Origin: Archivesica marissinica
Taxonomy: Eukaryota > Mollusca > Bivalvia > Venerida > Vesicomyidae
Reading direction: 5' to 3'
Assembly: GCA_014843695.1 (NCBI GenBank)
Contig: CM026390.1
Span: 93,247,837 to 93,311,836 of the forward strand
Length of the DNA stretch: 64,000 bases
A program made the position numbers and the translations under genes. Shown in pieces: positions 12,672 through 61,317 of this stretch. The notes under the pieces were generated by a model, which saw only the letters and a program-made list of their open reading frames with translations, was not told where the DNA came from and did not search any database. The first letter of the stretch is position 1. Each line of letters starts with the position of its first letter.

Positions 12672-15600
12672 CCATCGACTTTCTGCAAGAACCATCGACT
12701 TTCTGCAAGAACCATCGACTTTCTGCAAGAACCATCGACTTTCTGCAAGAACCATCGACTTTCTGCAAGAACCATCGACTTTCTGCAAGAACCATCGACT
12801 TTCTGCAAGAACCATCGACTTTCTGCAAGAACCATCGACTTTCTGCAAGAACCATCGACTTTCTGCAAGAACCATCGACTTTCTGCAAGAACCATCGACT
12901 TTCTGCAAGAACCATCGACTTTCTGCAAGAACCATCGACTTTCTGCAAGAACCATCGACTTTCTGCAAGAACCATCGACTTTCTACAAGAACCATCGACT
13001 TTCTGCAAGAATCATGGACTTTCTGCAAGAACCATCGACTTTCTACAAGAACCATTGACACTCTACAAGAACCATCGACTTTCTACAAGAACCACCGACT
13101 TTCTACAAGAACCATCGACTTTCTGCAAGAATCATGGACTTTCTGCAAGAACCATCGACTTTCTACAAGAACCATTGACACTCTACAAGAACAATCGACT
13201 TTCTACAAGAACCATCGACTTTCTGCAAGAACCATTGACTTTCTACAAGAACCATCGACTTTCTGCAAGAACCATCGACTTTCTGCAAGAACCATCGACT
13301 TTCTGCAAGAACCATCGACTTTCTGCAAGAACCATCGACTTTCTACAAGAACCATCGACTTTCTGCAAGAACCATCGACTTTCTACAAGAACCATCGACT
13401 TTCTGCAAGAATCATGGACTTTCTGCAAAAACCATCGACTTTCTACAAGAACCATTGACACTCTACAAGAACAATCGACTTTCTACAAGAACCATCGACT
13501 TTCTGCAAGAACCATTGACTTTCTACAAGAACCATCGACTTTCTGCAAGAACCATCGACTTTCTACAAAAACTGACGACTTTCTGCAAGAACCATCGACT
13601 TTCTGCAAGAACCATCGACTTTCTACAAGAACCATCGACTTTCTGCAAGAACCATCGACTTTCTACAAGAACCATCGACTTTCTGCAAGAACCATCGACT
13701 TTCTGCAAGAACCATTGACTTTCTACAATCATCGACTTTCTGCAAGAACCATCGACTTTCTACAAGAACCATCGACTTTCTACAAGAACCATTGACATTC
13801 TACAAGAACAATCGACTTTCTACAAGAACCATCGACTTCTGCAAGAACCATGACTTTCTACAAGAACCATCGACTTTCTGCAAGAACCATCGACTTTCTA
13901 CAAGAACCATCGACTTTCTGCAAGAACCATCGACTTTCTGCAAGAACATCGACTTCTCAAAACCCGACTTTCTGCAAGAACCATCGACTTTCTGCAAGAA
14001 CCATCGACTTCTCAAGAACATCACTTCTGCAAGAACCATCACTTTCTACAAGAACCATCGACTTTCTGCAAGAACCATGACTTTCTACAAGAACCATCGA
14101 CTTTCTGCAAGAACCATCGACTTTCTGCAAGAACCACGACTTTCTACAAGAACCATCGACTTTCTGCAAGAACCATCGACTTTCTGCAAGAACCATCGAC
14201 TTTCTGCAAGAACCATCGACTTTCTACAAGAACCATCGACTTTCTACAAGAACCATCGACTTTCTGCAAGAACCATCGACTTTCTACAAGAACCATCGAC
14301 TTTCTGCAAGAACCATCGACTTTCTACAAGAACCATCGACTTTCTGCAAGAACCATCGACTTTCTGCAAGAACCATCGACTTTCTACAAGAACCATCGAC
14401 TTTCTGCAAGAACCATCGACTTTCTGCAAGAACCATCGACTTTCTACAAGAACCATCGACTTTCTGCAAGAACCATCGACTTTCTACAAGAACCATCGAC
14501 TTTCTGCAAGAACCATTGACTTTCTACAAGAACCATCGACTTTCTGCAAGAACCATCGACTTTCTGCAAGAACCATCGACTTTCTACAAGAACCATCGAC
14601 TTTCTACAAGAACCATCGACTTTCTGCAAGAATCATGGACTTTCTGCAAGAACCATCGACTTTCTACAAGAACCATTGACACTCTACAAGAACAATCGAC
14701 TTTCTAAAGACCATCGACTTTCTGCAAGAACCATCGACTTTCTACAAGAACCATCGACTTTCTGCAAGAACCATCGACTTTCTGCAAGAACCATCGACTT
14801 TCTGCAAGAACCATCGACTTTCTGCAAGAACCATCGACTTTCTACAAGAACCATCGACTTTCTGCAAGAACCATCGACTTTCTACAAGAACCATCGACTT
14901 TCTGCAAGAACCATCGACTTTCTGCAAGAACCATCGACTTTCTACAAGAACCATGACTCTACAAGAACATCGACTTTCTACAAGAACCATCGACTTTCTG
15001 CAAGAACCATCGACTTTCTACAAGAACCATCGACTTTCTGCAAGAACCATCGACTTTCTACAAGAACCATCGACTTTCTGCAAGAACCATCGACTTTCTG
15101 CAAGAACCATCGACTTTCTACAAGAACCATCGACTTTCTGCAAGAACCATCGACTTTCTGCAAGAACCATCGACTTTCTACAAGAACCATCGACTTTCTG
15201 CAAGAACCATCGACTTTCTACAAGAACCATCGACTTTCTGCAAGAACCATCGACTTTCTACAAGAACCATCGACTTTCTGCAAGAACCATCGACTTTCTG
15301 CAAGAATCATCGACTTTCTACAAGAACCATCGACTTTCTACAAGAACCATCGACTTTCTGCAAGAATCATCGACTTTCTGCAAGAACCATCGACTTTCTA
15401 CAAGAACCATTGACATTCTACAAGAACCATCGACTTTCTACAAGAACCATCGACTTTCTGCAAGAACCATCGACTTTCTACAAGAACCATCGACTTTCTG
15501 CAAGAACCATCGACTTTCTGCAAGAACCATCGACTTTCTGCAAGAACCATCGACTTTCTGCAAGAACCATCGACTTTCTACAAGAACCATCGACTTTCTG

Positions 15601-18600
15601 CAAGAACCATCGACTTTCTACAAGAACCATCGACTTTCTGCAAGAATCATCGACTTTCTGCAAGAACCATCGACTTTCTACAAGAACCATTGACACTCTA
15701 CAAGAACCATCGACTTTCTACAAGAACCATCGACTTTCTGCAAGAACCATTGACTTTCTACAAGAACCATCGACTTTCTGCAAGAACCATCGACTTTCTA
15801 CAAAACCGACTTTCTGCAAGAACCATCGACTTTCTGCAAGAACCATCGACTTTCTACAAGAACCATCACTTTCTGCAAGAACCATCACTTTCTACAAGAC
15901 ATCACTTTCTGCAAGAACCATCGACTTTCTGCAAGAACCATCGACTTTCTACAAGAACCATGACTTTCTGCAAGAACCTCGACTTTCTGCAGAATCATCG
16001 ACTTCTGCAAGAACCATCGACTTTCTACAAGAACCATCGACTTTCTGCAAGAACCATCGACTTTCTGCAAGAACCATCGACTTTCTGCAAGAACCATCGA
16101 CTTTCTGCAAGAACCATCGACTTTCTACAAGAACCATCGACTTTCTGCAAGAACCATCGACTTTCTGCAAGAACCATCGACTTTCTGCAAGAACCATCGA
16201 CTTTCTGCAAGAACCATCGACTTTCTGCAAGAACCATCGACTTTCTGCAAGAACCATCGACTTTCTGCAATAATCATCGACTTTCTACAAGAACCATCGA
16301 CTTTCTGCAAGAACCATCGACTTTCTGCAAGAACCATCGACTTTCTGCAAGAACCATCGACTTTCTGCAAGAACCATCGACTTTCTGCAAGAACCATCGA
16401 CTTTCTGCAAGAACCATCGACTTTCTACAAGAACCATCGACTTTCTACAAGAACCATCGACTTTCTGCAAGAACCATCGACTTTCTACAAGAACCATCGA
16501 CTTTCTGCAAGAACCATCGACTTTCTGCAAGAACCATCGACTTTCTGCAAGAACCATCGACTTTCTACAAGAACCATCGACTTTCTACAAGAACCATCGA
16601 CTTTCTGCAAGAACCATCGACTTTCTGCAAGAACCATCGACTTTCTACAAGAACCATCGACTTTCTGCAAGAACCATCGACTTTCTGCAAGAACCATCGA
16701 CTTTCTGCAAGAACCATCGACTTTCTGCAAGAACCATCGACTTTCTGCAAGAACCATCGACTTTCTGCAAGAACCATCGACTTTCTGCAAGAACCATCGA
16801 CTTTCTGCAAGAACCATCGACTTTCTGCAAGAATCATCGACTTTCTACAAGAACCATCGACTTTCTACAAGAACCATCGACTTTCTGCAAGAACCATCGA
16901 CTTTCTACAAGAACCATCGACTTTCTGCAAGAACCATCGACTTTCTGCAAGAACCATCGACTTTCTGCAAGAACCATCGACTTTCTACAAGAACCATCGA
17001 CTTTCTGCAAGAACCATCGACTTTCTGCAAGAACCATCGACTTTCTACAAGAACCATCGACTTTCTGCAAGAACCATCGACTTTCAAAACTTTCTACAAG
17101 AACCATCGACTTTCTGCAAGAACCATCGACTTTCTGCAAGAACCATCGACTTTCTGCAAGAACCATCGACTTTCTGCAAGAACCATCGACTTTCTACAAG
17201 AACCATCGACTTTCTGCAAGAACCATCGACTTTCTGCAAGAACCATCGACTTTCTGCAAGAACCATCGACTTTCTACAAGAACCATCGACTTTCTACAAG
17301 AACCATCGACTTTCTGCAAGAACCATCGACTTTCTGCAAGAACCATCGACTTTCTGCAAGAACCATCGACTTTCTGCAAGAACCATCGACTTTCTACAAG
17401 AACCATCGACTTTCTGCAAGAACCATCGACTTTCTGCAAGAACCATACTCGACTTTCTCAAGAACCATCGATTTCTACAAGAACCATGACTCTCAAGAAC
17501 ATCGACTTTCTACAAGAACCATCGACTTTCTGCAAGAACCATCGACTTTCTACAAGAACCATCGACTTTCTGCAAGAACCATCGACTTTCTACAAGAACC
17601 ATCGACTTTCTGCAAGAACCATCGACTTTCTGCAAGAACCATCGACTTTCTACAAAAACCAACGACTTTCTGCAAGAACCATCGACTTTCTGCAAGAACC
17701 ATCGACTTTCTACAAGAACCATCGACTTTCTGCAAGAACCATCGACTTTCTACAAGAACCATCGACTTTCTGCAAGAACCATCGACTTTCTACAAGAACC
17801 ATCGACTTTCTGCAAGAACCATCGACTTTCTGCAAGAACCATCGACTTTCTACAAGAACCATCGACTTTCTGCAAGAACCATCGACTTTCTGAACATCGA
17901 CTTTCTGCAAGAACCATCGACTTTCTACAAGAACCATCGACTTTCTGCAAGAACCATCGACTTTCTGCAAGAACCATCGACTTTCTGCAAGAACCATCGA
18001 CTTTCTGCAAGAACCATCGACTTTCTACAAGAACCATCGACTTTCTGCAAGAACCATCGACTTTCTGCAAGAACCATCGACTTTCTGCAATAATCATCGA
18101 CTTTCTACAAGAACCATCGACTTTCTACAAGAACCATCGACTTTCTACAAGAACCATCGACTTTCTGCAAGAACCATCGACTTTCTGCAAGAACCATCGA
18201 CTTTCTGCAAGAACCATCGACTTTCTACAAGAACCATCGACTTTCTGCAAGAACCATCGACTTTCTACAAGAACCATCGACTTTCTGCAAGAACCATCGA
18301 CTTTCTGCAAGAACCCATCGACTTTCTGCAAGAACCATCGACTTTCTCAAGAACCATCGACTTTCTGCAAGAACCATGACTCTACAAGAACATCGACTTT
18401 CTACAAGAACCATCGACTTTCTGCAAGAACCATCGACTTTCTACAAGAACCATCGACTTTCTGCAAGAACCATCGACTTTCTACAAGAACCATCGACTTT
18501 CTGCAAGAACCATCGACTTTCTGCAAGAACCATCGACTTTCTACAAGAACCATCGACTTTCTGCAAGAACCATCGACTTTCTGCAAGAACCATCGACTTT

Positions 18601-20029
18601 CTACAAGAACCATCGACTTTCTGCAAGAACCATCGACTTTCTACAAGAACCATCGACTTTCTGCAAGAACCATCGACTTTCTGCAAGAACCATCGACTTT
18701 CTGCAAGAACCATCGACTTTCTGCAAGAACCATCGACTTTCTACAAGAACCATCGACTTTCTACAAGAACCATCGACTTTCTGCAAGAACCATCGACTTT
18801 CTGCAAGAACCATCGACTTTCTGCAAGAACCATCGACTTTCTACAAGAACCATCGACTTTCTGCAAGAACCATCGACTTTCTGCAAGAACCATCGACTTT
18901 CTACAAGAACCATCGACTTTCTGCAAGAACCATCGACTTTCTACAAGAACCATCGACTTTCTGCAAGAACCATCGACTTTCTGCAAGAACCATCGACTTT
19001 CTACAAGAACCATCGACTTTCTACAAGAACCATCGACTTTCTGCAAGAACCATCGACTTTCTGCAAGAACCATCGACTTTCTGCAAGAACCATCGACTTT
19101 CTGCAAGAACCATCGACTTTCTGCAAGAACCATCGACTTTCTACAAGAACCATCGACTTTCTACAAGAACCATCGACTTTCTGCAAGAACCATCGACTTT
19201 CTACAAGAACCATCGACTTTCTGCAAGAACCATCGACTTTCTGCAAGAACCATCGACTTTCTGCAAGAACCATCGACTTTCTACAAGAACCATCGACTTT
19301 CTACAAGAACCATCGACTTTCTGCAAGAACCATCGACTTTCTACAAGAACCATCGACTTTCTACAAGAACCATCGACTTTCTACAAGAACCATCGACTTT
19401 CTGCAAGAACCATCGACTTTCTGCAAGAACCATCGACTTTCTACAAGAACCATTGACTTTCTACAAGAACAATCGACTTTCTACAAGAACCATCGACTTT
19501 CTGCAAGAACCATCGACTTTCTACAAGAACCATCGACTTTCTGCAAGAACCATCGACTTTCTGCAAGAACCATCGACTTTCTGCAAGAACCATCGACTTT
19601 CTGCAAGAACCATCGACTTTCTGCAAGAACCATCGACTTTCTGCAAGAACCATCGACTTTCTGCAAGAACCATCGACTTTCTACAAGAACCATCGACTTT
19701 CTGCAAGAACCATCGACTTTCTACAAGAACCATCGACTTTCTGCAAGAACCATCGACTTTCTGCAAGAACCATCGACTTTCTGCAAGAACCATCGACTTT
19801 CTGCAAGAACCATCGACTTTCTACAAGAACCATCGACTTTCTGCAAGAACCATCGACTTTCTACAAGAACCATCGACTTTCTGCAAGAACCATCGACTTT
19901 CTGCAAGAACCATCGACTTTCTGCAAGAACCATCGACTTTCTGCAAGAACCATCGACTTTCTACAAGAACCATCGACTTTCTGCAAGAACCATCGACTTT
20001 CTGCAAGAACCATCGACTTTCTACAAGAA
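12672..20029. repeat. 20-bp satellite array, about 367 copies, running into the assembly gap
   Basis: The unit is ATCGACTTTCTGCAAGAACC, with a common variant ACAAG for GCAAG. The first 15 or so units (to about 12980) are identical. Degenerate patches with small deletions occur near 13720-14160, 14700-14710, 14950-14975, 15800-16010, 17085, 17440-17500, 17890 and 18310-18400. The unit lacks stop codons in every frame on both strands, and 20 bp gives a 60-bp (20-residue) coding cycle, so long open frames of hundreds of codons arise automatically. I do not call any of them genes. Confidence 0.99.
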
Positions 20030-22308: not shown

Positions 22309-22860
22309 AGTAATTCTGAGAACAGTAAATCTGAGAACAATAATTCTGAGAACAGATAATTCTGAGACAGTAATTCTGAGAACATAATTACTGAGAACAG
22401 TAATTCTGAGAACAGTAATTCTGAGAACAGTAATTCTGAGAACAATAAATCTAAGAACAAATATTCTGGGAACAATAATTCTAAGTACAACTATTCCGAG
22501 AACAATAATTCTGAGAACAGTAATTCTGAGAACAGTAATTCTGAGAACAGTAAATCTGAGAACAATAAATCTGAGAACAAATATTCTGAGAACAATAAGT
22601 CTGAGAACAGTAAATCTGAGAACAATAAATCTGAGAACAAATATTCTGAGAACAGTAATTCTGAGAACAGTAATTCTCTGAACAATAATTCTGAGAACAG
22701 TAATTCTGAGAACAGTAATTCTGAGAACAATAAATCTAAGACCAAATATTCTGAGAACAATAATTCTAAGTACAACTATTCTGAGAACAATAATTCTGAG
22801 AACAGTAATTCTGAGAACAGTAATTCTGAGAACAGTAAATCTGAGAACAATAAATCTGAG
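22309..22860 (+). repeat. 15-bp minisatellite, about 37 copies
   Basis: Units such as AACAGTAATTCTGAG, AACAATAATTCTGAG, AACAAATATTCTGAG and AACAGTAAATCTGAG. Because 15 is a multiple of 3, the reverse strand gives long Leu/Phe/Ser-rich open frames with no gene evidence. The same unit recurs in reverse orientation at 24635-25072. The array ends directly at a SINE. Confidence 0.97.
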
Positions 22861-24634: not shown

Positions 24635-25072
24635 ATGTTCTCATAATTATTGTTCTCAGAATATTTGTACTCAGAATTATTGTTCTCAGAATATATGTAC
24701 TCAGAATATTTGTTCTCAGAATTATTGTTCTCAGAATATTTATACTCAGAATTACTGTTCTCAGATTTACTGTTTCTCAGAATTACTGTTCTCAGATTTA
24801 TTGTTCTCAGATTTACTGTTCTCAGATTTATTGTTCTCAGATTTACTGTTTCTCAGAATTACTGTTCTCAGAATTATTGTTATCAGAATAGTTGTACTTA
24901 GAATTATTGTTCTCAGAATATTTGTTATCAGATTTATTGTTCTCAGATTTACTGTTCTCAGAATTACTGTTCGCAGAATTACTGTTCTCAGAATATTTGG
25001 TCTCAGAATATTTGTACTCAGAATTACTGTTCTCAGATTTATTGTTCTCAGAATTATTGTTCTCAGAATATT
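24635..25072 (-). repeat. 15-bp minisatellite, inverted relative to 22309-22860, about 29 copies
   Basis: Units such as CTCAGAATTATTGTT, CTCAGAATATTTGTT and CTCAGATTTACTGTT, the reverse complement of the array 1.8 kb upstream. Three in-frame reads on this strand are open, but only because the unit is a multiple of 3. Confidence 0.97.
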
Positions 25073-49204: not shown

Positions 49205-49242
49205 TCAAGATTTCTTCTTCGCCGCTTCTTTAGCTTCTTTAG
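49205..49242 (-). CDS. PDAP1: PDAP1 coding exon 6 (residues 172-183 and stop)
   Basis: Acceptor CTGTTTCAG, then CT completing an Ala codon, then [12 protein letters not shown] and TGA. The stop is at 49205-49207. No AATAAA is seen on this strand in the next 200 bp, so the 3' end is undefined. A 33-bp tandem array in intron 5 begins about 12 bp from the acceptor. Confidence 0.88.
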
Positions 49243-52200
49243 CTGAAACAGATAAACAGTAAGCTCAGGTAAATATTATGCTAGATTAACAGTAAGCTCA
49301 GGTAAATAGTACGCTAGATTAACAGTAAGCTCAGGTAAATAGTACGCTAGATTAACAGTAAGCTCAGGTAAATAGTACGCTAGATTAACAGTAAGCTCAG
49401 GTAAATATTACGCTAGATTAACAGTAAGCTCAGGTAAATATTACGCTAGATTAACAATAATCTCAGGTAAATAGTACGCTAGATTAACAGTAATCTCAGG
49501 TAAATAGTACACTAGATTAACAACATTTCTCAGGTAAATATTATGCTAGATTAACTAATCTCAGGTAAATATTATGCTAGATTAACAACAATCTCAGGTA
49601 AATATTACGCTAGATTAACAACATTTCTCAGGTAAATATTATGCTAGATTAACAATAATCTCAGGTAAATATTACGCAAGACTAACAATGTTTCTCAGGA
49701 AAAACGTTCTTGTATTTATAGAATATAGAAAATATCATCAATTATTTTTATTGCATTGCATTGACAAAAACTATTTCCCTGAATGAAAATTTACTAACTC
49801 TAGTCAAGGGAGATAATTATTGTGTTAGACAGACCTAATTTTTCCTCCTCTCGTTTTTTCGATGCGTCTTCTCTCTGTTTACGTATAAGTGCCAGTCTGG
49901 CCATGTCGCTGCGGGCCTCGTCAGTTTTCCCCTCCATGTGCATCTTCTGATAGCGCTCCTTGGCCTGCTGTTTTTCTACCTCTTCTCTGTAAAGTACAAA
50001 AGTAATACTGGTAACTAAGGAAACTAACTTGTAAATATGGAAACTAAGTTAACAGTAAATCGGTATACAAGTACAAAATACAGCATATCTTAGACTGATG
50101 CTTCCACCATCTGAAGAACATTGAAAACTAATTTAATCTTTTATTTTATACCTCAATGAAATACTTGCCAATGGGGTACCAAGTAATGTAAATCAGTTGA
50201 CAATTTTACATCGATTTAGCATTTTGCACAGTAAATCAACAGATGAAAGTTGTTAATTTGCTGTGTCACAGTGTGGGGTACTCTCGACCCATACACATTA
50301 ATACTAGGATGTTTATGCATAGTTTCAAAGCACAATCCTCGACAGTTTATGAGAATATTTTGACGAGTCCATGTTTTTCTGAAACCACTTTTATTATTTG
50401 CCAAAATTGAAATTCAAGGCCACTGTCTGGAAATAGTTTACATAATTATAAAGCATTGTTCTTGGTGGTTTTCGATGGCTGTTGCATCTAGTTGTTTACA
50501 TTGTGTTTTGTGGATATAATATTGCAAGCATAAATTTACTTGAGACATTATCATAATTACACGCTTCATTTGCAATGGATTTTTGCAGTTTAATTGAATA
50601 AAATTGATTTCACAATTCATGGTGGTAATAACCGAGCGGTCTAAGGTGCTAGTACTTCACACTGCGTTACAATACCACAGTTCCGTGTGAGTTCCAAACA
50701 TCGTACAATGAAGAATATCATGAATCTGCATAATGTTCATTTTATTATTAAATGATATTTTTATTCGAGTTATTAATGAATAAAAGATATTTTCCAAATT
50801 TGGGGTTGTTAAAAGTTTTATATTTATTTATTTTTTACGTGTTTTATTTCATTTTATGCAGTCTGTATATGTAATGCTATTACATTTCAATGTTTAACAA
50901 TTTAAATCTCCATTCCGTCTTCATTGGCAGTATCCGTTGAGCTGCCGCACTCATCAGCTGTAAGAATTTCATGAAGTTTGTTGCATATTTATATAAATTT
51001 TAAAGACAAAAAATATACCGGTACCTTCATTGAGGCTTGAACCCTGTACATTCGACACCACAAGCATTCTATATTACAACTACACTAACGAGGCTGATGC
51101 ATTTCACTACCTATAATTGCAAGGCTATATAATATCTATTGTGACATTACTGTGACCTACGGTCGACTGAATATGCAGATGTCTCGAGTAAGTTCAAGCT
51201 AGTAATACATAGATCTGACAATAATATTGTGAGCATAGACTACACAGTCCCGACTGTAACACTGCATATGTATCATACCTCTCCCTTCGACTCAGTTGTG
51301 TTCCTGAAGTAGGAGCCGTGTCTAATGCATCAATCTTCTTATTTTTCTTCAGGGCTCTATTCGGATTCTCTATTGCTATTAAGTGGGATACACCTTTATG
51401 TCTATCCTATAAACAAGAAATCACATGTATGGTTTCATTAAGCACAATGTCGGACACGCCTTTCACAGATCTGGTAAGGACATTATTATAAAATACGAGA
51501 AAACCCAATTCATTTGGATACAGTACAGCTTCAACTAACAATACATACGGTATACACATGCATACGTCAATTAATTTGAATCTGACAAGTAATGGCCATG
51601 CCCTTTCGCAGTGTTGAGCAGCATTCCTCGCAAGGAAATGCTTGTCTTATAGTTACGCTGTTACCAAAGATGATCTATTTACAGGCCTGTAGCCACACTG
51701 AGGCACACCGAGGAAAATTTCCAAACCAAAAAAATAAATAATGAAAAATTAAATAAATAAAATGCAAAAATATCCCTCTGCTGTATAAAATGTTGCCTGC
51801 TAGAGAGCTGAAAGGTCAGTACCGTACATAATTATACGTCTAAACTCATTAAATCAGAAAACACGGAATCAATCGCTTCTATACCCCAACAATTTTAAGG
51901 GCGAATATCCCCCCGGACCCCCTAGATTGCCTCAGTTGAAATTTGCCTCTGGCTACGATACTGATTTAGGCTGTCGTTTGTATTGAGATAGATTATTGCT
52001 AGAATATTAACCTAAATCTCTATGAAGGAAAGGGTTAAAATACATCACCATTAAATAGAACATATGAATAGAAGCAGTGACAACATTGTGTGTGAATATT
52101 TAGGGACAAGTCAGGGTTCCTAGGGCAACTATTTTGCCCAAGTCGCCCTCTAGAATGAGCCCGGGTATTGTGTGCACAACATGCCTGCACGCTATGGTGT

Positions 52201-55200
52201 TTAGATGTACTTGCTGTTACATGACATTCTGAGAGCAATAAATAGGAATTAGAGGCCCAGTTAAAATTCCAGGAGAAACATTTATATAGATGCGTTGATA
52301 ATCTAAGGACCATAACTCTGGTGCTCATCTCACAGCTTCTCGTAAACGTTGTACCCATACACCGCTACACACCGAACCCAAGTTTCATAACAATGAGTGG
52401 CTAATAGTAACAGAATTAGAAGCCCCTTGGAAAAAGGTATATCATTGTATCTACTACCGTACTCACAAACGTATGGACAGATAGGGCTACACTAACACCA
52501 CCCCAACCATAGCAGGGATACAACACCAATATGACTGACGGATAGGGCTACACTAACACCACCCCAACCATAGCAGGGATACAACACCAATATGATTGAC
52601 AGATGGGGCTACACTAACACCACCCCAACCATAGCAGGGATACAACACCAATATGATTGACGGATAGGGCTACACTAACACCACCCCAACCATAGCAGGG
52701 ATACAACACCAATATGATTGACTAATCTGAATATTTCTAAAGATATAATCTGGGGAGAAAATGTCACATGCTAATTCCTGATATAGAAATGTACTTCAGG
52801 CAAATGTGTGTATAAGAATCATGTACAGGTCTAATGTTGATGTTTATGAAGAACAAAACATAAACTTGCTACAAGATCAAACCTGCTGTACCCTACCAAT
52901 AATGTCGTGGAAAACTAAAGACAATTTCTTATTCTCTTACACACACCATGATCTGAGGAATGCCGAACAATGTTGTAAATATTCTCTTACACACACCATG
53001 ATCTGAGGAATGCCGAACAAAGTTGTAAATATTCTCTTACACACACCATGATCTGAGGAATGCCGAACAACGTTGTAAATATTCTCTTACACACACTATG
53101 ATCTGAGGAATGCCTAACAACGTTGTAAATATTCTCTTACACACACTGTGATCTGAGGAATGCCTAACAACGTTGTAAATATTCTCTTACACACACTATG
53201 ATCTGAGGAATGCCTAACAACGTTGTAAATATTCTCTTACACTATCGGAGTCTGAACTATCCGACTCGGAGCCGCTCTCCTCTGCAGTACCTCCTGTAGC
53301 TCCATCCTTCTTTTCCTTTTCCTCCTCTTCATCATCATCATCACCTCGTTCTTTCTGAAAAAGTAGATTTAAAATACACTGGTAAACAATGATTTATTGG
53401 GCATGATGATGCATATACCATGAATGTATAAGCTATCTAGTCAAATTCCAACAAAAGACTTCAAAATATAAATAGGTCAATTTCTAAAAATAGTGTAAAT
53501 AGTCACCTACATATGTAAGTATAAGGCTGTTTTGAGGCAAAACCATGATTAGTCAAAATCTGGATGGTGGCACGTGAGAAGAATTTTTAAGAATTTGTGC
53601 TATTTTTAGATGGCGCCATCTTGGATTTCATGGGAATTTTATTTTAACAAATTTTGAAAGGCTTCACCTAACGATCATACAAGCAGAGTTTCTTGAACAT
53701 TAGCTGATCAGTTCATGAGAAGAATTTGTTTGAAATCTCTCATAATGGGTTGACCTTTTGACCTTTCGATGGCCATCTTGGATGATGTAATTATTGTACC
53801 AGAGTGATCCCCTCATTGATACCTGGAACATGACCATATTCGCTCAAAAATCAAATGTGACCCCTACTTGACCCCATGTCCATTTTTAGTTTAAACAATA
53901 TTTATTTCTTTGAATAGACATAGTCTAGTTTAAACTTTATTTATTTTACAACGATTGCGAAGCAAGTTCTAACAACTTATATAATAATCACTCTCGTTGG
54001 CGCGGATGAAAGTGTAAATGTGGTCATTCATGTGGGAAGAAACCAGAGTACCCGGAGAAAACACACCTGTCCGATCTGGCGACCACCGTACCATCTCACA
54101 TACTTCCCGGTCCGAGGATCGAACCCGGGTTGCATTGGTGAGAAGCGAGCGAGCTAACCACTGCGCTAATCGGACATAGTCTAGTATACATAATATGTAC
54201 ATACGTGTAGGATTGAGGAGAAAGCATCCATTTTTGATCCCGGGGTCACCATTTGAACAACTTTGAGAGAGCAATGTACATCGATACACAATGACGTGAT
54301 TTAAACAATTATGTGATCCCCACCTACCAAGTATCATATATATGTATATTTGGTGGACCCAACGGTTACTGAGAAGACGTTTGAAATGTTCACATTTGAC
54401 GGACAGACACATTGTACTTCCATGATACTAGGGTTTTCTCTAGAGCGGAATGGCAGGGTGCCGCGCCCTGCCCCTTTTTAGCCCCGCCCTTTTGCCCTTT
54501 ATGCCCGATTTGTTCCGCCCTGCTGCCCAAACTAGAACCACGACTCTTTGATCATGCTTAATTAGCTGTCAATCATCGTAAGGTAGGTTAACGGTCAACC
54601 GTATATTAGCCGATACGTGTGATCTGTTTAATTTATCAATAATTAGTATATACTGTACACAACAGCTGGGGGCATAATTATGCCGATACCATAAGAAATC
54701 GATTTATCAATGGATTAATTGGTGATAATTGGATGACTGCAACTGTTAAAAAAAAGAAGAAGTAGGGCCTATGATTGTAACACCTAGTATTTCGAGAATT
54801 AGTTTTAACGTAATTACCGTTGAATGTAGACATTCAAAACGTAGATGCAAGACATGTTACTTAAAATAGAACTGGTTTCGCGCATTTCCGCCCTTTTCCG
54901 TTAGTCAATTGAACTACACGCTCCGAAAAGTCCCGAAAGTTACCTCATTTACGATCGGAACGAACCGGGCTGAGTGCGCGCGCAAGATGACGAAGAGTTG
55001 TCGTTATTTCAAAGGAAAATAGACTGACAAGGGAAACAAATCATTTAGCGACAATCACCTTAGACCACTGTACTCTGTTTTCTATTTGGTGAATTTGAAA
55101 AAAAACGTAAAATCTTTATCTCAACCAGCCGATCAGAATATAGTATCAACCACGCATAAAGAACGCCTTCATCACTTGCTCAGCCCAGGGTTATGGTCAA

Positions 55201-58200
55201 AACGCGTGGTTGATGTCATTATTCAGTTGGGTGGTTGAGAAAAAAGGCTTGCCGAAAAAAAAAAAAACGATCCGAAAATGAAAGTCATCCGGGAAAAAAG
55301 CAGTCAAAAGTCATTCCACTAACAATATGCACAAGAGGAATGTAGTGATTATCAAAACAAACCAGGTACAGTTAATTATGGGACATAGGGCTATTTACAG
55401 TACGAACAGAATTATTTGGGATTTCCGAAATGGACATCAAAATACCGAAATGGACTATTTATACAAGCTTCATCATATTGATTTCGTTCTGAATTGTGCT
55501 TTTCAAACCCGCTTTCAATTTAGCCATTGGGCAACGTTTTACAGCAAATTACTTTAGCATTTGAGCAAACTTTCTATCAGGTTTGGTCTGAAAACTCTTG
55601 TTAAAATATGCATCAGCAGCCTCTCATAATAAAGAATGTAGTTATCTTCTTCTTCTTGGTGATTTCGGCACTCCCTCAATATTGAGGATTATGTGTCGTC
55701 GCTGGTGAATTTTGAGATGATGATATTTACAATGATTAATTAACAAATAAGTGAATGTCCAAAGACAAATATACTACAGTGATTGTTTAAGATTTTGTAC
55801 ATAGAGTGAATGCTTTAGATCATGGTTGGGAGGGCATTTACGGGGATAAGTGCTTTAAAGCCATCAATTGTTATTGCTTCATGTGCAGCAAGGGGTAACA
55901 AGTTCCATTGGATGACGGTTCTTGGATATGTATCATACATAACATAACAGCTACACTGTCACTTCAGATTTTCATGGAAGAATCCAGCAATAGGTACATC
56001 TACATTGTAGCATATTAGTATATTTTATTACTGAAAGATTTCAGCCTAATTATTTCATTCATGATAAAGCGAACAAGTCTATAAAGGACTACACGCATGT
56101 GCAACTAAGTGTCTAAATCAGCCCCCAGTGTTATTGAAATATTGAAAAAAGGATGATTTTACCCTTCATGTCTTTGCATGCTAAATACCTCCCCCAATAG
56201 GCATGCTATGACCATAACAACAAGTCCTGAAGAACCCATGTAGGAGATTGCAACAATTGCACAAAATGGAGATAAAATAGTAATTTTGAAAATTAAGTAT
56301 ATAGCACAGCTAGGATAATGGTAAGCCTTTTTTCTCAACCACCAAACTGAATAATGACATCAACCACGCGTTTTGACCCTAACCCTAACCCAACCCTGGG
56401 CGGAGCAAGTGATGAAGGCGCGTTATGCGTGGTTGATACTATATTTTGATCGGCTGGTTGAGATAAAGATTTTACCTAGGAGTATTGACTGAAAATCAGT
56501 TCTGTACGAGAATATTTACAACTTTGTTTAACATTCCTAGATTTTTTACTCGAAATCACAGACGTGGGTTTTTTTTATCAGGATCTGCTTTTATGGTCAT
56601 AACGCGCATTTTGTGGCGGTTGTTTAGCCTGGGAACAGGCGTCGATATATTTTGCCTGGTCAGTCAAATAAATATATTTTAACACCGATACTATTAATTG
56701 GGCCGTATTGAGTTTCTGATCATATCAACGCCTGGGGAAAAGTGGGGGATTGTCCGTGTAATTATTGACTCGCATTAATCCTATTAATAGGCCTATTGGC
56801 ACGTGTCATTTTGCCAGAAGTTAAAAAGTGAAAAATCGACAGACTGTAACCCAGGCTAGCGGTTGTTTAGCATTTCAAAGAGATGAAGGATAAAATTAAT
56901 TTGTTTTCTAATTTTTTAGCGTATTATCATCCATTTTCAATTTTTCGTTAAAACTGAGGTCTGATTTCGTCCAAACTTGAACATTTATACATAAAGGTCT
57001 TATTGCCAAGTACAGTATCTGTTTGGAAACAAACGAGTGAAACATCTATACATACCCTCCACTGTTTTTCTCGCCTTTCTTTGTCCAACTGTTCTTTTAA
57101 AGTCACCTCATCTGTAAAATGGCGACTCCTTCCCTTGTAATTCTTCTTCGGAGCTCTACCACCACCTTACAATATAAGATCGAAATACTGACAGTGACAA
57201 TAGTCAAACTACCCCTCCCACATACACCATTAATCAATAAACTACCCCTCCCACATACACCATTAATCAATAAACTACCCCTTCCACATACACCATTAAT
57301 CAATAAACTACCCCTCCCACATACACCATTAATCAATAAACTACCCCTTCCACATACACCATTAATCAATAAACTACCCCACCCACATACACCATCAATC
57401 AACAAAATACCCCTCCCACATACACCATCAATCAACAAAATACCCCTCCCACATACACCATCAATCAACAAAATACCCCTCCCACATACACCATTAATCA
57501 ACCAAATATACCCTCCCACATACACCATTAATCAATAAAATACCCCTCCCACATACACCATTAATCAACCCAATACCCCTTTCCCACATACACCATTAAT
57601 CAACCAAATACCCCTCCACATACACCATCAATCAACAAATACCCCTCCAACATACACCATTAATCAACCAAATACCCCTCCCCCATACACCATTAATCAC
57701 CATACCCCTCCCACACATCTTAATCAACCAAATACCCCTCCCACATACCCCATTATCAACCAAATACCCCTCCCACATACACCATTAATCAACCAAATAC
57801 CCCTCCCACATACACCATTAATCAACCAAATACCCCTCCCAAATACACCATTAATCAACCAAATACCCCTCCCACATACACCATTAATCAACAAATACCC
57901 CTACCACATACACCATTAATCAACCAAATACCCCTCCCACATACACCATTAATCAACCAAATACCCCTACCACATACACCATTAATCAACCAAATACCCC
58001 TCCCACATACACCATTAATCACCAATACCCCTCCCACATACACCATTAATCAACCAAATACCCCTCCCACATACACCATTAATCAACCAATACCCCTCCC
58101 ACATACACCATTAATCAACCAAATACCCCTCCCACATACACCATTAATCAACCAAATACCACTACCACATACACCATTAATCAACCAAATACCCCTCCCA

Positions 58201-59010
58201 CATACACCATTAATCAATAAAATACCCCTCCCACATACACCATTAATCAACCAAATATACCCACCCACATACACCATTAATCAACCAAATAAGCACTAAA
58301 ACAAATTTTAAGAAATGTTTTAAAAACCATAAAAATAAAGAGTTAAAAATCACATTGATTGGCCAGACAATATATATAGACAGACTGATTAGCAACTACT
58401 TATTATATAATATCTACATAGATACAATATTAATTAAATTTGTCTTTATTATAGTCTCGTCAATGTACAAGTTAAAACATAATTATCACAGATTACTATA
58501 CTTACTGGTGCATTGCCATTCAAGAGACTTATCGCACTAAATTCTGTAACATTCTGTGCATACAGTGTTAATCCTACCTCATTTTATAAGGTTAAAAACT
58601 GCCATGAAATTAACAGAATTAAGAAACTAAATTTTAAAATCATTTTGTTTTGAAATTGACTCTAGCTGTAAATCTAAGCACATTCATTTTGAATATGTCG
58701 ATCCCGGGCGATCGCAAATTGTACGCTGCCAGTGATGGATAAATAACGTATAATGACTACAAACAATAATTTTAGTGGATAAATTTATAGTTTGACAAAT
58801 TGTGTCACTTCCATCAGACAAAGACCAAGCAAGTTATTTATGAAGGTATATCCCCGATACAGCCAATCAGCGAGTCATATGCTAATGTATCGGGGGTTTC
58901 TCAGCATGAGCAATTGGTGATGTCATTGTTTATTTAATCGCTTTATTGGGGGCTATAATTTAGGTGTTGCAGTAGCTAATGTGCTGTAAACAGAGGACAA
59001 AAAAGGTATA

Positions 59011-59049
<39 letters not shown>

Positions 59050-61317
59050 CACCAGGCCTGAGAATGTTTACAATTATTGTCTCCGAGACTGGAAAATCAC
59101 GTAACATTCAACATTTTCTACGGGCCCTAGATTTTTTATACACAGGCCTGTGGGCTTGTCGAATTTAAAGAGACAGGCCCGATTTTGAGGGGTATCGGGC
59201 TGTACGTGTGTATCGGTTGCCTGATGCAACCGTCACGTGGCTGGTCCAGCGGACAAATATAAACAATATGCCTGATGCAACTGTCACGTGGCTGGTCCAG
59301 CGGACAAATATAAACAATCATTTGGAGAATATTTCTACAGAAACTGATACGGGGTATGAGCAATTTAGGTAGCTATCCCTATTTAAAAAATCTACACCTA
59401 ACCCGAAAAATAGTTTCTATATACCATTTCTGATTAAGACCAATCAATGTTTTTATTCAATGATGTACTATATCAAAATAAGATATATAAAAAATAACAA
59501 GTACGCCATGCATAGGTGCCCTGAAGTCTAGAGTTCCCCATATAAACGGGTGCCGACCAGACACCATTGCGATAGCTGTATTGAGCAGCACGGTCACGCG
59601 ATGAAGCTAAAACTGTCAACAAGAGTTTTTTAAAGTTGTTTTCACAACTTAAGAAAAAAATAATATACGGCAAGTATAACATGTTAATTTTGTTATCTGC
59701 CTACTGCACAGGGATTCGGCACGTTTGGGGGTACTAGTATATATATTTAAGTACAGGGATTCTACTCTGTGGGATGTCAGATTTCGCATCGATCAGTAAA
59801 ATTACCCTATCTGAAACAATTTTGTACAAAGCTGTCCAAATATAACGCCTATCCCGAGTCTTTATATTGTTCTTCAAATAAAACACAACTTTAAGCTGCA
59901 TGCATGTATACTTTACAAACAATTGCCACAGACATTGGCCATAGCAGGTCACATTTCCATACTAGGACACGGGTTCTGTCAGCAACAAAAAAAAATCTTC
60001 GACGGGAGAGTTTTAACTGTGAATAACATTATCTATAAAATGTGTTTCCACTAACGTGTAGGTTTATTCGGCAAAAATGTACGTCAAAAAGAGATTTCGT
60101 AGCATTTTCAATTTGTTTTGAAAATTTCTAAAGCGGCGCAATTCGCATTGAAACGAGCGTTGAAACGAGCGTTCTGATTGGATTATTAGAATGTAACCAG
60201 ATGTTTTTTTATATATGAAGAATAATCATAATCCAATCAGAACGCTCGTTTCAACGCGAATTGCGCCGCTTTAGAAATTTTCAAAACAAATTGGTCCCGA
60301 CCGGAAGACCTTTTTCTATCAACAAATACTTTTTATTTCATCGAGATCGATCAAATAACACCTGAACGGCGCATTGTTTCATCGGGAACAGCAGGAAACG
60401 AAAAGTTGTCGTTTTGGCTGGGCGATCGGTTTTTGGCAACATACGATGTGAATGAATGCTTTTTTCTCATTGGTCAAAAATGAAACATGTAAATACATAT
60501 ATAAACAGCAGCCAATGAAATGCCGCTGTATATTCACCGCGGATCTTATCCAAAATGGAACAATTATTGAATTTTACTTTTGTTTTGTATTTGATTCCTG
60601 TATTGCTGTTGGATCTGCACGCCGAGGCTGCAAACAACATGATTCGCGAGAGAAAGATTCCATTTAACGAAGTATGAGTGATTTTTAGATGTTATGAGTA
60701 TTACACTGGGTAAAACGTCGAGAAAACATTCCGCCAAATCAAAAACCGAACACCCAGCCAAAACGACAACATTTCATGCCCTGCTGTTCACGATGAAACA
60801 ATGTGCCATTCTGGTGTTATTTGACCGATCTCCATGAAATAAAAAGTATTTGTTGATAGAATAAGGTCTTCCGGTCGGGACCACGAGGGCAAATCAGTGA
60901 TCTGGTCGTTTTTACCTAGTTTCTCGTCGATGTTTCTGCATGCATGTTTCAATTTCGTTGGTTGCCTTTATTATATATTACTTACTATATGACCATAGGC
61001 CAAAAAAAAAAAATGTGTCTGGTGCCTGTGCACCGAGCATAGGTTCCACTTTAATAACTTTACAAATACCATTCTAAGAGTTAGAAACAAAAGAAACCAC
61101 AAAATAACACCGGGAATAACGTCTAAATCATCTCATTCTATTAAAAATAGACAATAGACAAAGATATCCACAATCCGCGTTCTGCTCAACTTTCAGTAAC
61201 TTAAATATTATAACAAGTGCCTGTTTGTGTCATCATATATTAACATTTTCCATATCCTGCAACATATTCGTAAACATAGATCACCATAAATATGCAATTA
61301 TACACACCTCTTGGCAT
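49205..61317 (-). CDS. PDAP1: PDAP1, 28 kDa heat- and acid-stable phosphoprotein (PDGFA-associated protein 1), six coding exons
   Basis: Join of 61308-61317, 57056-57165, 53241-53354, 51279-51406, 49835-49986 and 49205-49242, read on the minus strand. The exons sum to 552 nt including the stop, giving 183 residues; the human protein is about 181. Family landmarks appear in order: MPRG start, KGRSRHFT near residue 14, an acidic DDDDEEEE run and [10 protein letters not shown] in exon 3, [43 protein letters not shown], then a Lys/Ala-rich C-terminus. All introns are GT-AG with compatible phases. PDAP1 is a small, charged, conserved phosphoprotein reported to bind PDGF-A; its biochemical role is poorly defined. 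The introns (4142, 3701, 1834, 1292 and 592 nt) hold minisatellites and transposons. No promoter or poly(A) signal was recognised. The identity is near certain; only the tiny first exon is less sure. Confidence 0.95.
49255..49688. repeat. 33-bp minisatellite in PDAP1 intron 5, about 13 copies
   Basis: The unit has AACAGTAAGCTCAGGTAAAT then AGTACGCTAGATT. It occupies most of the 592-nt intron and starts about 12 bp from the exon 6 acceptor. Later copies shorten or change to AACAACATTTCTCAGG. Confidence 0.96.
49835..49986 (-). CDS. PDAP1: PDAP1 coding exon 5 (residues 121-172)
   Basis: Acceptor CTTTACAG and donor GTCTGT. It encodes the charged helical core: [20 protein letters not shown], then [17 protein letters not shown] and a KKREEEK run. 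This is the strongest match to vertebrate PDAP1 in the window. The exon is distinctly richer in G+C than the AT-rich introns around it. Confidence 0.96.
49987..51278 (-). other. PDAP1: PDAP1 intron 4
   Basis: 1292 nt, GTATGA to CTTTACAG. It holds tRNA-like fragments near 50630-50705 (plus: AACCGAGCGGTCTAAGGTGC) and 51040-51105 (minus: GGGTTCAAGCC). Both are possible SINE heads without recognised bodies. The rest is AT-rich. Confidence 0.5.
51279..51406 (-). CDS. PDAP1: PDAP1 coding exon 4 (residues 79-121)
   Basis: Acceptor TTTATAG and donor GTATGA. It encodes [16 protein letters not shown], the family's most recognisable short block, and ends inside the Arg codon of LSRRER. The split codon is completed by the first base of exon 5. 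Confidence 0.94.
51682..51963. mobile_element. hAT-like MITE, copy 2, in PDAP1 intron 3
   Basis: Ends CAGGCCTGTAGCCACACTGA and TTTGCCTCTGGCTACGATACTG, flanked by ATTTA at 51677-51681 and 51964-51968. It is the inverted counterpart of 25382-25625, including TATCCCCCCGGACCCCCTAG and TATCCCTCTGCTGTATAAAA. Confidence 0.85.
52190..52475. mobile_element. Possible diverged repetitive element
   Basis: The style ACCATAACTCTGGTGCTCAT ... AAGTTTCATAACAATGAGTG ... CGTATGGACAGATAGGG resembles dispersed non-coding repeats with GGACAGAC-type ends common in molluscan introns. No second copy in the window. Confidence 0.25.
52476..52722. repeat. 61-bp tandem repeat in PDAP1 intron 3, 4 copies
   Basis: The unit includes GGATAGGGCTACACTAACAC, CACCCCAACCATAGCAGGG and ATACAACACCAATATGATTG. 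Copies are almost identical. Confidence 0.97.
52931..53240 (-). repeat. 50-bp minisatellite starting at the PDAP1 exon 3 splice donor
   Basis: Six full units plus a partial one. Plus-strand unit: ATTCTCTTACACACACCATG, ATCTGAGGAATGCCGAACAA, then CGTTGTAAAT. Read with the gene, each unit contains ATAGTGTGTAAGAGAAT or a close variant (CATGGTGTG, CACAGTGTG). The authentic junction reads GATAGT|GTAAGAGAAT. The donor and adjoining exon-end bases are thus copied every 50 bp into the intron. Confidence 0.95.
53241..53354 (-). CDS. PDAP1: PDAP1 coding exon 3 (residues 41-78), acidic segment
   Basis: Acceptor CTTTTTCAG and donor GTAAGAG (GT at 53240-53239). It encodes a Lys/Asp/Glu-rich stretch with DDDDEEEE and a Ser/Asp-rich end, [10 protein letters not shown], typical of casein-kinase-2-like sites in the family. 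Both boundaries are phase 0. The donor is the first of seven near-identical donor-like sequences, because a 50-bp tandem repeat starts exactly at this exon-intron junction. Confidence 0.93.
53560..54418. mobile_element. Possible diverged repetitive element interrupted by a SINE
   Basis: Contains GATGGCGCCATCTTGGATTT, GACCTTTTGACCTTTCGATG and, on the far side, GTTCACATTTGACGGACAGA. These are features of dispersed non-coding repeats in invertebrate introns. The family B SINE at 53930 lies inside. Assignment is uncertain. Confidence 0.3.
53930..54173 (-). mobile_element. SINE family B, copy 5, in PDAP1 intron 2, with 12-bp target duplication
   Basis: Full-length reverse copy flanked by ACATAGTCTAGT at 53918-53929 and 54174-54185. 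It has an intact B box (GGATCGAACCCGGG on the plus strand). One of the best-preserved copies. Confidence 0.93.
55107..56475. mobile_element. Foldback element with arms of about 150 bp (1.37 kb)
   Basis: The left arm 55107-55253 and right arm 56320-56475 are inverted repeats. The outer 29 bp (starting GTAAAATCTTTATCTCAACC) match perfectly. Each arm also has an internal inverted pair, TATCAACCACGC and GCGTGGTTGATG. The right arm contains CCCTAACCCTAACCCAACCC. The middle, about 1.07 kb, has no recognised coding region. Confidence 0.88.
57056..57165 (-). CDS. PDAP1: PDAP1 coding exon 2 (residues 4-40)
   Basis: Acceptor TGTAAG at 57167-57166 and donor GTATGT from 57055. It encodes the basic N-terminus, with [14 protein letters not shown] and then [15 protein letters not shown], and ends on a complete codon (phase 0). 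The acceptor has a weak pyrimidine tract. About 40 bp upstream of it in the intron begins a 33-bp minisatellite of about 1.1 kb. Confidence 0.93.
57208..58289. repeat. 33-bp minisatellite in PDAP1 intron 1, about 33 copies
   Basis: The unit has CCCCTCCCACATACACCATT then AATCAACCAAATA. Copies next to exon 2 use AATCAATAAACTA. Small deletions cluster in 57590-57730. Both strands are open in places (the unit is a multiple of 3) but this is intronic. Confidence 0.98.
58290..59210. other. PDAP1 intron 1, mostly unique
   Basis: Holds a 10-bp perfect inverted pair CCCCGATACA/TGTATCGGGG (58852-58861, 58886-58895) and a (GATT)n run at about 59012-59048. No gene recognised. Confidence 0.45.
59220..59319. 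repeat. 50-bp direct repeat, 2 copies
   Basis: GCCTGATGCAACCGTCACGT followed by GGCTGGTCCAGCGGACAAAT and ATAAACAAT, repeated with one or two changes. The first copy is preceded by CGGTTGCCTGATGCAACCG, a small hairpin. Confidence 0.95.
59331..60108. other. PDAP1 intron 1, unique
   Basis: Short minus-strand open frames (59473-59682, 59734-59952) have no recognised motif. Confidence 0.35.
60109..60293. mobile_element. Palindromic element (about 185 bp)
   Basis: The left arm begins CAATTTGTTTTGAAAATTTC and includes AAAGCGGCGCAATTCGC. The right arm is its reverse complement, ending GAAATTTTCAAAACAAATTG. The left arm has a private 12-bp duplication (TTGAAACGAGCG twice). It abuts the next inverted-repeat element. 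Confidence 0.88.
60293..60882. mobile_element. Inverted-repeat element with arms of about 150 bp (590 bp)
   Basis: Left end GGTCCCGACCGGAAGACCTT, right end AAGGTCTTCCGGTCGGGACC. The arms continue for about 150 bp with ATCAACAAATACTTTTTATT and its complement. No transposase. It directly joins the palindromic element on the left, possibly one composite. Confidence 0.88.
60883..61307. other. PDAP1 intron 1, unique sequence near exon 1
   Basis: Poly(A) run near 61002-61013. No motif recognised. Confidence 0.35.
61308..61317 (-). CDS. PDAP1: PDAP1 coding exon 1 (start codon, 10 nt)
   Basis: Minus-strand ATGCCAAGAG followed by GTGTGT. It encodes M-P-R plus the first base of a glycine codon, completed by GT at the start of exon 2. 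This gives the MPRG start that I recall from invertebrate PDAP1 proteins. I looked for other ATG-CCN-AAR/AGR-G|GT combinations upstream of exon 2 and saw none. The 5' untranslated part and transcription start are not defined; sequence just upstream is AT-rich. A 10-nt coding piece could match by chance, so a transcript is the decisive check. Confidence 0.6.

Follow-up and report, generated by a model that had tools for sequence, protein, structure and literature searches.

A clam PDAP1/PP28 gene with a 50-bp minisatellite beginning at its exon 3 donor

Minisatellite-like tandem repeats at exon–intron boundaries have been described in lancelets as mirages, and they are reported at both 5′ and 3′ boundaries (PMC3087553, PMC3902484). 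The genes named as carrying them are Adh3 and the globins BflGb6 and BflGb9, together with TnC and PGBD5, which are given in PMC3902484. According to the passages on these loci, many of the repeat units, not all, hold AG/GT signals, and splicing is reported to be regular (PMC3087553, PMC3902484). It has been suggested that such signals could act as cryptic sites, and it has been proposed that arrays of this type seed new introns (PMC3087553). In human, the minisatellite of IFI6 (also 6-16 or G1P3) is described as supplying multiple splice donors (Turri 1995, as cited in PMC2915984 and PMC4526556); there, donor use is reported for two of the repeat units further downstream, with three mRNA species and different isoforms as the outcome (PMC4526556). 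Human genes in segmental duplications are likewise reported to hold internal tandem repeats at exon–intron boundaries, which vary between paralogues and form novel introns with transcript support (PMC2812944). In abalone, a length-variable 27-bp minisatellite lies in a gene intron, and contact with a splice site is not stated in the passage that describes it (PMC6905558). In the titles, abstract openings and passages of the literature searched, no report of a splice-boundary minisatellite in a bivalve was found.

Here we describe such an array in a clam. The window, by which we mean the whole stretch of 64,000 nucleotides that was analysed, contains a complete PDAP1/PP28 gene on the minus strand (49205..61317). 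Its coding exons 1 to 6 lie at 61317-61308, 57165-57056, 53354-53241, 51406-51279, 49986-49835 and 49242-49205, all five introns have a GT donor and an AG acceptor, and the joined exons encode 183 amino acids; the position of exon 1 is based on frame and start codon only. Pfam analysis revealed a PP28 domain at residues 92-170 (E 3.2e-29, 101.6 bits, the cut-off being 25). The best protein match, with 1792 relatives found and 120 of them listed, came from Ruditapes philippinarum (86% identity, 100% query coverage), and the next among these best 120 came from Dreissena polymorpha (65% over 86%). From these matches the source would be a heterodont clam, and probably a venerid one. With the domain above its curated cut-off and the 183-residue frame intact, the gene is PDAP1/PP28. 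Exon 3 (53241..53354, minus strand), placed by this frame and by comparison with Ruditapes, encodes an acidic, Ser/Asp-rich segment that includes SSDSDS. The gene, its strand, exon 3 and the exon 3 donor had all been read in this way in an earlier note made from the letters alone, and the Pfam domain, the Ruditapes match and the intact frame confirmed that reading. Furthermore, the residues across the exon 3/4 junction were identical in Ruditapes (P0001), which fits use of the first donor.

When the window was analysed with Tandem Repeats Finder, a minisatellite was detected at 52930-53242 with a period of 50, 6.3 copies, 97% matches and a score of 563. It consists of six units in register, each starting with GTAAGAGAATA on the minus strand, and a 13-nt partial unit. 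Read along the gene strand, the full units start at 53240, 53190, 53140, 53090, 53040 and 52990, and a seventh, partial unit from 52940 matches for 11 nt (13 with the preceding GT) before it diverges. The units differ from one another at four columns, with GTTAGG in units 1-3 versus GTTCGG in units 4-6. Exon 3 spans 53354-53241 and its donor G is at 53240, which puts the array edge at 53242 within the exon by 2 nt, so that an array is indeed present at the exon 3/intron 3 junction, as had been proposed; the interval first drawn for it, which ran to 53354, had wrongly taken in exon 3 itself.

How much of the exon is repeated was read directly from the alignment. Going leftward from the junction, exon and unit end match at two positions, after which 4/18 of the next positions agree. 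The exon end reads CCGATAGT/GTAAG and the units read CATAGTGTGT/GTAAG, CACAGTGTGT/GTAAG or CATGGTGTGT/GTAAG. Because the match stops after 2 nt, the repeated segment is essentially intronic, consisting of the 50 nt with which intron 3 begins. Each unit had been described as holding GTAAGAGAATA preceded by ATAGT, resembling the exon end, or by a near variant of it. The first part held in 6/6 downstream copies; the second did not, as TGT stands ahead of it in register, again in 6/6. ATAGT occurs 4 nt upstream of the donor register in units 1 and 3 (2/6), and that position is occupied by ACAGT in unit 2 and by ATGGT in units 4-6.

We consider it likely that this array is a mirage-type intronic passenger minisatellite, in which the first donor is the one used and the unit is related to a monomer that occurs singly elsewhere in the gene. 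A 50-bp segment starting at the first base of intron 3 would have been duplicated head to tail six-fold, and each unit would carry the intronic half of the donor by duplication. The order of these events and the choice of donor are what we infer. The first donor is very probably the used one, since none of the other 12 sites tested yields the conserved PDAP1 protein, the in-register copies score lower, and normal splicing is reported for arrays of this type in lancelets; the remaining donors would be passengers. Some observations weigh against this reading: the edge of the 50-bp array meets the donor more precisely than chance placement would lead one to expect, although the array had been chosen for that feature; three of the extra sites outscore the real donor; the repeat donors of human IFI6 are reported to be in use; and mirage signals, as suggested in PMC3087553, could act as cryptic sites.

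Evidence for the relationship to a monomer came from a BLAST search of the window in which the unit and the array served as queries and the array itself was masked out. A single strong match was returned, within intron 2 at 56503-56542 (plus strand), with 85-88% identity across 41 bp and E values as low as 1.2e-7. The feature, a solitary and diverged monomer of the 50-bp unit at 56495..56542 (plus strand), is oriented opposite to the gene. A 21-mer, GAGAATATTTACAACNTTGTT, is exact in this monomer and in the six units, the chance expectation with up to three mismatches being 0.03 matches for a pattern that was picked after the BLAST match. Local alignment of the monomer scored 55 versus a background maximum of 29 (580 stretches), and with softer penalties the alignment spanned the whole period, from ATCA to AGAT. 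The monomer also contains the donor-like bases TGTACGAGAATA, so that bases of this kind are not restricted to the exon 3 junction. We then searched the window with 14 arrays, taking the opening six units or 200 bases of an array as its query and keeping hits to E 0.01. A relative away from the array's own edge was found for the 50-bp array only (1/14), and two others matched beside themselves. Given a relative of the unit elsewhere in the gene, the donor was probably within, or overwritten by, a repeat monomer that later expanded, and the array is then not a copy of a private junction. The 21-mer core occurred in no stretch of viral contigs, and the array had no match in plasmid records; neither collection is a likely source of clam repeats, and records near the source genome were possibly excluded from them.

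Other repeats were seen in the same region. In intron 2, two copies of a sequence of about 150 bp (55107-55253 and 56320-56475) stand 1.1 kb apart in inverted orientation with 89% similarity, and they perhaps represent the two ends of a single element. Outside this pair, at a distance of about 20-28 bp, is the monomer, and the stretch around it starts with CTAGGA and ends with TCCTAG. A dispersed repeat, perhaps a SINE, is located at 53929-54176, with eight further places in the window that match it in whole or in part.

The main alternative concerns the origin of the array. The earlier note had suggested slippage at the exon–intron boundary; boundary slippage would have copied the private PDAP1 junction, the intron 2 monomer would be a later stray copy from the array, and the repeats would be passengers in function. 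The coincidence of the array edge with the donor agrees with this suggestion, as does the ATAGT that resembles the exon end, displaced by 4 nt, in two of the six units. The support is partial, as only 2 nt of exon are shared in register, and a donor-like monomer exists in intron 2. The intron 2 monomer might have been copied from the array, but it is more diverged from the array (12-15% over 41 bp) than stretches within the array are from one another (2-6%). We therefore regard boundary slippage as possible and clearly the less probable origin. The odds of the two readings overlap, and the difference between them is one of origin only.

We also examined the array in the context of other arrays. 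Tandem arrays are common in the 64-kb window, where Tandem Repeats Finder gave 31 rows, some of them overlapping. In the same gene, a second array of about 13 units of 33 bp (49250..49687, minus strand) ends 7 bp before exon 6. The GTTAATCTAG of its units corresponds to GTTTATCTGTTTCAG at the real acceptor, and the last unit runs into the real exon 6 acceptor, CTTACTGTTTATCTGTTTCAG. Among the 12 earlier units examined, the acceptor-like TTAATCTAG was present in 12/12 and CTTACTGTTAATCTAG in 5/12. Another 33-bp array, of about 33 units, lies in intron 1 (57205-58291) and ends 39 bp before exon 2, and an array of four 61-bp units (52476-52722) lies further along intron 3, 518 bp from a splice junction. 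Elsewhere in the window, two 15-bp arrays (22311-22860 and 24636-25069) are inverted copies, 88% alike over 424 bp and 1.8 kb apart, and a 20-bp satellite with 371 copies covers 7.4 kb (12672-20029).

Array edges lay closer to splice junctions than expected under random placement in the window. With cut-offs set after the data were seen, with the 50-bp array already picked for its edge position, and with four junctions misplaced, by 1 nt for one of exon 1, one of exon 2 and one of exon 3 and by 11 nt for one of exon 5, placing 15 arrays at random against 10 junctions gave P = 0.012 for one or more edges within 2 bp and P = 0.00065 for two or more within 8 bp, and the three observed edge distances were matched in 0/20,000 random placements in the window. 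Under the same limits, when arrays were confined to their own introns the single-array P values were 0.0255, 0.0013 (the 50-bp array), 0.65 and 0.10, and Fisher's combination gave 0.001 for the four arrays and 0.048 when the array picked in the earlier note was left out. Because of the post hoc cut-offs and the misplaced junctions, this enrichment is only a lead, not a result. A broader proposal, in which splice-boundary minisatellites recur in clam introns, a dispersed monomer supplies the exon 3 donor and repeat number sets the number of competing, truncating donors, is in our judgement improbable.

To compare the real donor with the extra sites, we used a human donor matrix and a human 11-nt U1 end, both applied here to clam sites. 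The real exon 3 site, AGT/GTAAGA (53239..53240, minus strand; the slash marks the exon–intron boundary), is the sole one of 13 tested sites that keeps the 183-residue frame, and it is presumably the one used in RNA. Downstream of it are six in-register donor-like copies, TGT/GTAAGA, with G at 53190, 53140, 53090, 53040, 52990 and 52940 (52939..53190, minus strand). Among the 177 GTs in 53560-51281, the real donor scored 0.99 (rank 11) versus -0.47 for the copies (ranks 24-29), and the duplex with the U1 end was -5.3 kcal/mol for the real donor and -4.3 kcal/mol for the copies. About six extra consensus donors spaced at 50 bp had been claimed; six in-register GT sites are there, but they fall below the real donor and ‘consensus’ is too strong a word for them. 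The matrix and the U1 duplex together also picked out ATG/GTGTGT sites in units 4-6, with G at 53046, 52996 and 52946 (52945..53046, minus strand), which scored 3.51 with the human matrix (ranks 1-3 of the 177 GTs) and formed a U1 duplex of -6.6 kcal/mol. The donor-like sites beyond the real one are thus not uniformly weak: three of them outscore it, and these more competitive sites are other than those first named. On the same human matrix the real donor of exon 5, TAG/GTCTGT, scored just 0.15, so that a site cannot be taken as unused from its low score.

We then followed what the downstream sites would do to the protein, and for each of 12 downstream candidate donors we placed the intron sequence up to that site between exons 1-3 and exons 4-6. 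The results showed an identical product of 86 amino acids in 12/12 constructs, because unit 1 holds an in-frame TAG, and the frame stops after eight added residues. The stop lies 145-401 nt ahead of the exon 4/5 junction in all 12, and the 86-residue product loses the PP28 domain. Transcripts using the extra donors would thus encode a truncated protein and would probably be prone to nonsense-mediated decay, a fate that is predicted from the position of the stop. Two roles had been offered for the extra donors, the addition of protein stretches after the Ser/Asp-rich segment and the buffering of donor loss. Both were ruled out by this common early stop, which ends every extension tested and leaves no tested backup donor able to restore the PP28 domain.

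The same truncation can be turned into a function, in which downstream copies are sometimes used, the early-stop transcripts are degraded and repeat number tunes PDAP1 output. The six GTAAG copies and the three ATG/GTGTGT sites that score above the real donor would supply such a ladder, all 12 tested extensions stop at the shared TAG well ahead of a later junction, and IFI6 as described offers a human precedent. A protein search with the 86-residue query (ending VREYLQRC), in a database that may lack the source species, did not recover this product among the predicted proteins; 2 of 10 candidates matched, both of them exon 2 with intron read-through, and neither covers exon 3. Lancelet mirages, moreover, are reported without disturbance of splicing (PMC3087553, PMC3902484). 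We consider such tuning very unlikely.

Assemblies often give tandem arrays a wrong length, and the array could be an assembly artefact or have a wrong copy number, yet the four variable columns that separate units 1-3 from units 4-6 are not expected from a simple duplicated-read artefact, and we regard this alternative as very unlikely. A structured RNA array hiding the decoy donors was unsupported (fold z 0.33, with 59/100 shuffles folding at least as well). The window held no known RNA family at Rfam gathering scores and no tRNA by ARAGORN with the bacterial code, and translation of the unit as a protein-coding repeat gave no candidate with enough common words.

Collectively, the preferred reading is that of an intronic passenger array with its first donor in use. 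It appears to add a splice-site minisatellite to the lancelet and human cases in the literature found, and another array lies near an acceptor in the same PDAP1/PP28 gene. Taken alone, the case is of modest interest. Were the pattern widespread in clam introns, it would provide a natural test of donor choice among near-identical neighbours, and also of the proposal that arrays seed new introns (PMC3087553).

Compared with the described systems, the clam array is most like the lancelet mirages. As in those, it adjoins the boundary, with its edge at 53242 and the donor G at 53240, and its units hold splice signals, GTAAGA being present in 6/6 downstream copies. It differs in that the unit shares only 2 exonic nt in register, in the solitary monomer elsewhere in the gene, and in unit length, which is 50 bp in the clam versus the reported 150-160 bp in BflGb6, 157 bp in BflGb9 and 10-72 bp in Adh3. 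Judged from sequence, and with only 2 exonic nt in the unit, it is a candidate mirage in the strict sense. The likeness to IFI6, as that gene is described, is that minisatellite units offer donors downstream of an exon; the repeat donors of IFI6 are reported to be in use, whereas the candidate extensions in the clam would truncate the protein. With the boundary repeats reported in human segmental-duplication genes the clam array shares its position at an exon–intron boundary, and it differs from them in that its sequence gives no sign of a new intron.
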